Assembly: GCA_028872875.1 (NCBI GenBank)
Contig: JAGWOC010000008.1
Span: forward strand, 1-64,000
From: Chloroflexota bacterium
GTDB lineage: Bacteria; Chloroflexota; Dehalococcoidia; DSTF01; JACRBR01
Direction: 5' to 3'
Length of the DNA: 64,000 nucleotides
Shown here: positions 42,599 to 43,810 of the stretch, in pieces
How the letters are laid out: each line of letters opens with the position of its first letter
Position numbering within the stretch: the stretch's first letter is position 1
Made by a program: the position numbers and the translations under genes
Notes under the pieces: generated by a model
What the model was told of the DNA's origin: nothing
The model's input: only the letters and a program-made list of their open reading frames with translations
Database searches by the model: none

Positions 42599-42628
42599 TT
42601 GACAGGGCAGCGGCGGCCAGACTATCGT
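42599..42628 (+). promoter_or_regulatory. Promoter of the phosphoribosyltransferase leader
   Basis: TTGACA (42599-42604), 18-base spacer, TATCGT (42623-42628). The -10 box is identical to that of the small RNA at 13.8 kb. Confidence 0.75.
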
Positions 42629-42694
42629 GGGGATAGCCGCGATGGCAGCGGCCATCCCGGTCATGAGCAATCCTTAGTGACAAGGAGGTGCTTC

Positions 42695-42739
42695 ATGAAC
42701 GACCGCATCCGCTGGGGTGTCTGGCAAGTCGACACCTGA
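42695..42739 (+). CDS. Leader peptide MNDRIRWGVWQVDT
   Basis: 14 codons with a perfect AGGAGG 6 bases before the ATG. It has two tryptophans and two arginines close together but not a run of one amino acid. Its stop codon abuts the first hairpin after it. Position between promoter and terminator suggests translation-dependent attenuation; the sensed signal is unknown. Confidence 0.6.
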   Translation: MNDRIRWGVWQVDT

Positions 42740-42885
42740 GGCTCTGCCAACCGGGCAGGGCGCGCCGATGGGCAGGCTCCAGGTACCAATGGCAGAAGGG
42801 ATGTCGTTGAACGCACAGTTCCCAGCCGTGACGGGGGTAACCCGTTGTGGAGCCTGCCGGATCTCTGAGTGACCCAAACTGAAGC

Positions 42886-42914
42886 AAAAGGCTTTCCGCA
42901 ATGGAAGGCCTTTT
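42886..42914 (+). terminator. Leader terminator before the pyrE-like gene
   Basis: AAAAGGCTTTCC / GGAAGGCCTTTT (12 bp, one G-U) with loop GCAAT; ends in TTTTCGTTT 13 bases before the next ATG. Confidence 0.8.
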
Positions 42915-42927
42915 CGTTTGACGCCGC

Positions 42928-43584
42928 ATGACCGAAGAGCAACTGGACAACGAGTCAAACCTCTGGCTGGCCGACACGCTGTGGCGCCTCGGCGCCGTCC
43001 AGTTCGGCGACTTCACCCTCGGGCGCACAACCGTGCACTCGCCGATCTACGTCAACCTGCGCCTGCTCGTCGCCCACCCGACCGCGCTGGCGCGGGCGGC
43101 GCAGATCGTCCAGCGCGAGCTGCAAACCCTGCAGTCCATGCGCAACCCCCAGTGCGACCCGTTCGACGTCGTCTGCGGGGTGCCCTTCGGCGGCCTGATG
43201 ATCGGGCAAGCCTTTTCGCTCTCCTCCCGCGTGCCGCTCGTCTACCTTCACCCCCACAAGGACGACCTCGACTCGGACGTCGAAGGGTTGTATCACCCGA
43301 GCCAGACCGCCCTCATCATGGACGACCTGATCACCGGCGGCGGCAGCATCATCGTGACGGCGAACCGGCTGCGCGACGAGGGGCTGTTCGTCCACGACGC
43401 CGTCGTGCTGTTCGACCGAGAGTCGGGCGGCCGGCAGAAGCTCGAGGAGCACGGCATCCGGCTCGTCTCGCTGCTGACCATCAGGGTGCTGATCAACTAC
43501 CTGACGTCGAGCGGGAAGATCGGCGAGGAGTGGTACCGCAAGAGCATGACGTTCCTCGAACGTCAGCCGAGCGCACCCGACTAG
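42928..43584 (+). CDS. pyrE: Orotate phosphoribosyltransferase-like enzyme
   Basis: 218 residues of the type I phosphoribosyltransferase fold. The PRPP loop is ALIMDDLITGGGSIIVTA near residue 130 (variant of VxxDDxxTTGGS), preceded by VCGVPFGGLMIG and the flexible loop HPHKDDLD. OPRT makes OMP from orotate and PRPP. The PRPP motif is a one-residue variant of the canonical OPRT signature, so another purine or pyrimidine substrate is possible. No Shine-Dalgarno; a terminator ends just before it. The stop overlaps the next gene's stop on the other strand by 4 bases. Confidence 0.85.
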   Translation: MTEEQLDNESNLWLADTLWRLGAVQFGDFTLGRTTVHSPIYVNLRLLVAHPTALARAAQIVQRELQTLQSMRNPQCDPFDVVCGVPFGGLMIGQAFSLSSRVPLVYLHPHKDDLDSDVEGLYHPSQTALIMDDLITGGGSIIVTANRLRDEGLFVHDAVVLFDRESGGRQKLEEHGIRLVSLLTIRVLINYLTSSGKIGEEWYRKSMTFLERQPSAPD

Positions 43585-43796
43585 AGCAGCCGGCGGACCG
43601 GCTTGCGGCCCGGACGCGGGTCGTAGTTCGACTTGAACATCTCGAGCTTGTCGCGCTCGATCAGATACTTGCCGGCGAACAGCACCGCCGGCACTTTCTT
43701 CTGCTTGATCAAGCGTCGCAGGCTCTGCGGGTGGATGCCGAGCAGCCGCGCCGCTTCCACGAGGTCCAGGTAGTTCTCGAACGGACTGGTGATCAT
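43581..43796 (-). CDS. Small helix-turn-helix (excisionase/MerR-like) DNA-binding protein
   Basis: 71 residues. The winged-helix HTH is YLDLVEAARLLGIHPQSLRRLI (core AARLLGIHPQSLRRL), followed by KKVPAVLFAGKYLIERDKLE, the beta-hairpin and last helix of excisionase-type domains. A basic tail (RPGRKPVRRLL) may bind DNA. ATG 43796 is preferred over the upstream TTG. Its promoter region is AT-rich with a palindrome suited to self-regulation. No integrase adjacent. Confidence 0.82.
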   Translation of the reverse strand: MITSPFENYLDLVEAARLLGIHPQSLRRLIKQKKVPAVLFAGKYLIERDKLEMFKSNYDPRPGRKPVRRLL

Positions 43797-43810
43797 CGCG
43801 CGCCCCAACC

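Follow-up and report, generated by a model that had tools for sequence, protein, structure and literature searches.

A predicted micropeptide-encoding small RNA gene of Chloroflexota, with a candidate ribosome-pausing peptide, found ahead of pyrE-like and unrelated genes

In the window, i.e., the whole 64,000-nt stretch of Chloroflexota DNA analysed here, a pyrE-like gene is preceded by a short open reading frame (ORF) and several hairpins, which raises the question of whether this region is an attenuator of that gene, as the original prediction proposed, or an element with a wider role. The promoter, Shine-Dalgarno (SD) sequence, 14-codon ORF, hairpin, 10-bp stem and terminator that had been claimed were each found in place, all within 42599-42914, ahead of the orotate phosphoribosyltransferase (OPRT)-like gene (Table 1). 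The feature is real and far more than a product of chance. None of 200 dinucleotide shuffles folded as well as the window RNA (z -3.65). When G000 was compared with G001, two species of the window's genus, the ORF and the structured part were 100% identical over 166 nt, compared with 47% identity in the 150 nt upstream of the element and 96% in the OPRT gene.

Table 1. Positions of the element, its parts and the gene behind it in the window.
Feature	Position	Strand	Basis or remarks
Sigma-70-type promoter, TTGACA-18-TATCGT	42599..42628	+	TTGACA at 42599-42604, TATCGT at 42623-42628, spacer of 18 nt
Shine-Dalgarno sequence, AAGGAGG	42682..42688	+	SD ahead of the start in nearly all homologues
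14-codon micro-ORF, MNDRIRWGVWQVDT and stop	42695..42739	+	Sequence and homologues
Peptide core, W-G-V-W-Q-V-D	42713..42733	+	100 aligned homologues
P1 hairpin, GCTCTGCC/GGCAGGGC, 8 bp	42741..42761	+	Folds, spacing, covariation
Three-way junction closed by P2	42771..42858	+	Folds, covariation, model match
P2, 10-bp stem, GGCAGGCTCC / GGAGCCTGCC	42771-42780 / 42849-42858	+	Two further hairpins inside
P3, arm of the junction	42791..42827	+	Folds, covariation
P4 hairpin, ACGGG-GGTAA-CCCGT	42831..42845	+	Folds, covariation
Intrinsic terminator, AAAAGGCTTTCCGCAATGGAAGGCCTTTT	42886..42914	+	Sequence; similar hairpin in most loci
Orotate phosphoribosyltransferase-like gene	42928..43584	+	NCBIfam match below cutoff

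The link to pyrE is genuine at this locus. The OPRT-like protein has NF010382 (orotate phosphoribosyltransferase) as its top NCBIfam model, with 137 bits against a cutoff of 208, and the ATG of its gene lies 13 nt past the terminator stem; an SD is missing and a promoter would not fit in, so that expression must either read through the terminator or start within it. Relatives were gathered by a protein search with the pyrE-like protein, and their upstream DNA was then compared. Fourteen genomes of the window's order have the element ahead of the pyrE-like gene, and this gene lies directly 3' of the element in 16 loci from five families, mostly starting no more than about 40 nt from the terminator and again leaving no room for a promoter. 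A role in cis at pyrE is likely in the window, where the element may add control of read-through. Such a role cannot be the general one of the family. In three members of the order (L009, L014, L016), pyrE lacks the element and has a different upstream sequence, and in three genomes (G008, G010, G015) the peptide is present though pyrE carries no element. One of these (G015, locus L041) showed only the type that is not linked to pyrE, with a NIRVLA core, and a further genome (G017) has two types (L043 and L056), one linked to pyrE, with a TRVLW core, and one not, with a NIRVLA core. The window also holds, at 43590-43800 on the minus strand and convergent with the OPRT gene, a small frame resembling an excisionase/MerR-type helix-turn-helix protein (LVEAARLLGIHPQSLRRLIKQKKVPAVLFAGKYLIERD).

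Sequence searches indicated a much broader distribution. A pattern for the peptide alone, GGNRTNTGGCARGTNGAY, matched 17 of the 18 genomes in the order of the window and additional ones elsewhere in the class, with 26 matches versus two for the reversed pattern used as a control; one class-level match (L051), which has none of the features of the element, was judged to be due to chance. An exact-pattern scan for the peptide and the start of P1 was run on all genome contigs of about 85,000 prokaryote species, thus doubling as an out-of-phylum control. It returned 89 contigs, 87 of them titled Chloroflexota (Dehalococcoidia, Dehalococcoidales, Thermomicrobiales and Thermoflexaceae being among the names), where about four chance matches would be expected by a rough estimate from the pattern information. 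A contig labelled Deltaproteobacteria (L119) carries a typical Dehalococcoidales-type element (115.6 bits) and is probably mis-assigned, and a match outside Chloroflexota (L120), inside a long frame and without an SD, was attributed to chance. The viral contigs scanned gave no match to the element, and a phage origin was rejected on this ground. Of 400 Chloroflexota genomes, 42 had the element by a covariance model and 70 by a broader one, a single genome carrying as many as four copies; these figures depend on the threshold, strict filters losing weak true copies, and 70 of 400 is not an exact prevalence, as some weak matches at E about 1e-3 may be false. Judged from these comparisons, the element represents a predicted small RNA gene, so far without a name, that is distributed over the phylum Chloroflexota.

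A transcription unit of its own was indeed recognised by computation. At the expected place, 76 of 92 loci have a promoter with at least 9 of 12 matches, compared with 4% of control positions, and 87 of 92 have a terminator-like hairpin and T-run; together, these would delimit a stand-alone transcript of about 280 nt. The neighbourhood is variable. Of the loci with a recognised terminator outside pyrE, 28 have their next gene on the same strand, 37 have it on the opposite strand and 5 have none, it being noted that neighbour ORFs were chosen by length and that single assignments may be wrong; several convergent neighbours were confirmed by strong Pfam domains. Same-strand neighbours have no common function or pathway, the non-pyrE neighbours including cysS, rpe, a rhomboid gene and SIR2, and no resistance gene occurred among the neighbours sampled. 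In two loci, a gene follows closely behind the element: cysS in L031 and, in L229, one that has an SD to itself. An own promoter, an intrinsic terminator and non-fixed neighbours, by which a stand-alone small RNA is recognised, were thus all found.

The RNA folds into the hairpin P1 and a three-way junction of P2, P3 and P4, a structure supported by covariation. Within 34 Dehalococcoidales-type elements, double changes occurred in 25 of the 34 pairs of these four helices, and double-change cells numbered 102; shuffles gave 35 (0/500), and slid controls 19-40. A covariation scan without any structure input placed 12 exact helix pairs of P1-P4 among its top 14 pairs, the other two being a one-base register neighbour in P2 and an inner position of P4. 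A model built from Dehalococcoidales-type elements alone, and so from lineages other than the window's, detected the window copy (39.5 bits, E 1.7e-8). In the window's order, the P2 arms pair more stably with their own partner than with the partners of other species (-21.1 versus -16.5 kcal/mol on average), an advantage not seen in every species of that order. The leader peptide and the long-range stem were found to be conserved and compensated in relatives, as had been predicted. In the folds of about 25 loci, no conserved antiterminator or other pairing alternative to the terminator stem was recognised; an alternative P1-P2 pairing, possible on inspection in the window's family, is absent from other families and was rejected as a conserved feature. 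Four copies of the peptide core and a P1-like hairpin, with neither junction nor terminator, were observed in one genome (G415, L232-L235), about 95-170 nt ahead of the start of four different genes; three of the proteins encoded behind them begin with an apparent signal peptide.

The element did not correspond to the known RNA families tested. Neither the window nor nine homologous loci matched an Rfam 15 family at the gathering score, riboswitches, T-box, tmRNA, 6S and SRP RNA included, so that neither outcome named in the original prediction as contrary evidence, an unconserved peptide or stem or a known riboswitch, was encountered. The best sub-threshold match in the window covers the terminator alone, and relaxed thresholds yielded just terminator or chance matches, such as the L20-leader with 25 bits against a cutoff of 58.7. 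A T-box, suggested by UGGU in the P4 loop of a single lineage, was rejected since this loop is not conserved, as was a disguised tmRNA, since tmRNA was found separately in those genomes. 6S RNA was not detected in 12 relatives (G000-G011), a negative result that carries no weight, as the Rfam model used also misses many phyla and control genomes. A literature search for GVWQVD found no paper, and wider searches gave no description of the element.

The peptide is, on the evidence of its alignment, conserved at the amino-acid level in a core (aromatic/Leu)-GVWQVD. Among 100 aligned homologues, the core residues were retained as G 100, V 99, W 98, Q 99, V 97 and D 98, with F, Y, L or W ahead of them in 95, a conservation partly imposed by the search pattern, so that copies found by the model weigh more. 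The latter include the variants GIWQVD, GVFQVD, GVLQVD, GVWQID, WQVE and GRWQVD, and their replacements are largely conservative. The third positions of the Gly codon and of both Val codons use all four bases in the 100 homologues. The N-terminal parts are specific to lineages (MRLH.., MNNRIR.., ..TRVL.., ..KKP..), and the stop (n = 100) follows the core Asp immediately in 7 and one codon on in 65, while the other 28 have it 5-23 codons on. P1 directly follows the micro-ORF stop in the window copy, where it begins 7 nt past the Asp codon, and 21 of 25 loci detected with no spacing requirement have a distance of 6-7 nt. This spacing, fixed while the start and stop of the ORF vary, points to the ribosome position relative to the hairpin as the conserved relation. 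Diverged cores, GRWQVD (after NIRVL) and YCVWQVD (after LDNPRVL), were observed once per genome in two families (f76 and f87, L189-L198), which suggests lineage-specific subtypes. In two loci (L087, also L158), the core is tandemly duplicated within one ORF (MQMKNPRAFLGAWQVDQAFLGVWQVD and stop).

Several explanations of this element can be weighed against each other. The original prediction, in which attenuation of pyrE responds to a pyrimidine, PRPP or ppGpp, agrees with the 16 loci mentioned above and to that extent stands; we nevertheless regard it as very improbable. Most homologues are not near pyrE, lying before unrelated or convergent genes, the sensor part is identical in kind whatever the neighbour, and the window's genome has, on another contig, a second OPRT match with a better score (95 versus 59 bits; L258, G000:C44:96714-97196). 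Sensing of a nucleotide or PRPP thus found no support, while "translation state", another input then proposed, remains the best of these suggestions. A PyrR or U-rich pyr attenuator was rejected as well, a position ahead of pyr genes being found in a minority of loci, and so was an amino-acid attenuator of the trp type, as there is no regulatory codon run and the single conserved Trp becomes Leu or Phe in diverged copies. A mobile cis-attenuator module, in which pausing in the leader decides termination for any downstream gene with no role in trans, would account for the close, promoterless position of pyrE behind the terminator, for the other sequences found upstream of pyrE where the element is missing, for cysS and the SD-bearing gene closely behind it and for the four different genes preceded by copies in G415. 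We consider it unlikely, though less so than nucleotide sensing, because the next gene is convergent in 37 of 70 non-pyrE loci, several with solid Pfam domains, the downstream genes share no pathway, and the folds show no conserved pairing in competition with the terminator stem.

The coding part could also be the whole point, the micropeptide being a signal, a toxin or a protein-binding peptide and the structure of its mRNA incidental. The strong SD and the strong amino-acid conservation would be in line with this; the core is however tied to neither terminus, no hydrophobic membrane segment or signal peptide was apparent by eye, and the core-to-hairpin spacing is conserved, which makes this explanation somewhat less probable still than the mobile module. 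Conversely, a purely noncoding RNA with an accidental ORF would fit the strongly conserved structure, but the codon-pattern conservation, the SD and the conservative replacements leave it with almost no credibility.

We favour, with moderate confidence, a small RNA that is both translated and structured, that makes the ribosome pause against P1 by means of its peptide and that acts mainly in trans, with possible control of read-through before pyrE. Transcription from its own promoter would produce an RNA of about 280 nt, ending at its own terminator. A ribosome would initiate at the strong SD and translate 9-30 codons; the nascent chain ending in (aromatic/Leu)-Gly-Val-Trp-Gln-Val-Asp probably makes it pause, with its leading edge against P1, 6-7 nt downstream. 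When the Asp codon is being decoded, P1 would presumably be located close to where the mRNA enters the ribosome, as general ribosome geometry has it. Pause or passage may then set the folding of P1 and of the three-way junction, and hence how long the RNA lasts, how it folds or whether it terminates; the RNA would then act mainly in trans. Where a gene lies right behind the terminator (pyrE-like here, cysS elsewhere), the same switch could also set read-through. We infer the arrest itself, a signal or ligand, a target and the activity in trans from this arrangement; no target, ligand or protein partner of the element was found. Some observations go against this preferred reading: in the 16 pyrE loci the same gene has stayed immediately after the terminator, in line with a role in cis there, the G415 copies lie directly ahead of other genes with neither junction nor terminator, and the resemblance to ErmBL (see below) extends over just a few residues of a peptide whose stalling is drug-dependent. 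More tentatively, the purpose of this phylum-wide, stand-alone RNA might be to carry a ribosome in a programmed pause, with the peptide and P1 sensing the state of the ribosome or its exit tunnel, and the released, structured RNA or the stalled complex regulating other genes in trans. To our knowledge, no described leader-peptide system is organised as such an independent gene.

The element thus adds an undescribed RNA-plus-micropeptide family, with a covariation-supported structure, in a phylum where regulation has barely been studied, and with it a likely arrest peptide separated from any single regulated gene. This opens the testable question of whether a leader-type peptide and a paused ribosome can serve as a stand-alone regulator, and the GVWQVD core (peptides MNDRIRWGVWQVDT, MRLHELFGVWQVDS) is readily open to toeprinting with standard E. 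coli ribosomes.

Dual-function small RNAs exist, such as SgrS/SgrT and RNAIII/hld, and like them the element would be an independent small RNA with a short peptide encoded in it. It differs from them by its phylum-wide distribution and by a peptide core at a fixed distance from a hairpin, which suggests that the translating ribosome matters. With the trp-type attenuators that have trans-acting products, rnTrpL/peTrpL (PMC7298713), it shares a leader peptide, a hairpin overlapping its end, a terminator and the possible release of a short RNA plus a peptide. By contrast, it has no regulatory codon run, no recognised 2:3 antiterminator and no tie to an amino-acid operon. Among the drug-inducible arrest leaders, ErmBL of ermB (PMC4935803) is the nearest precedent, by likeness in possible working and not by membership. 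Both have a short, SD-led ORF, a nascent chain ending in Val-Asp and hairpins just past the putative stall site. Stalling of ErmBL depends on Val9-Asp10 and becomes three times as strong with Arg in the A site (PMC4935803); in the element, Val is found in 97% and Asp in 98% of the 100 homologues, and the residue after Asp is Arg in 32, Ser in 23, Cys in 10, Trp in 7 and Lys in 6, the basic Arg or Lys making up 38%. The residues ahead of Val-Asp differ, WQVD in the element versus RNVD in ErmBL. Furthermore, ErmBL needs a macrolide and acts in cis on one resistance gene, whereas the element has no resistance gene, varying neighbours and a terminator of its own.
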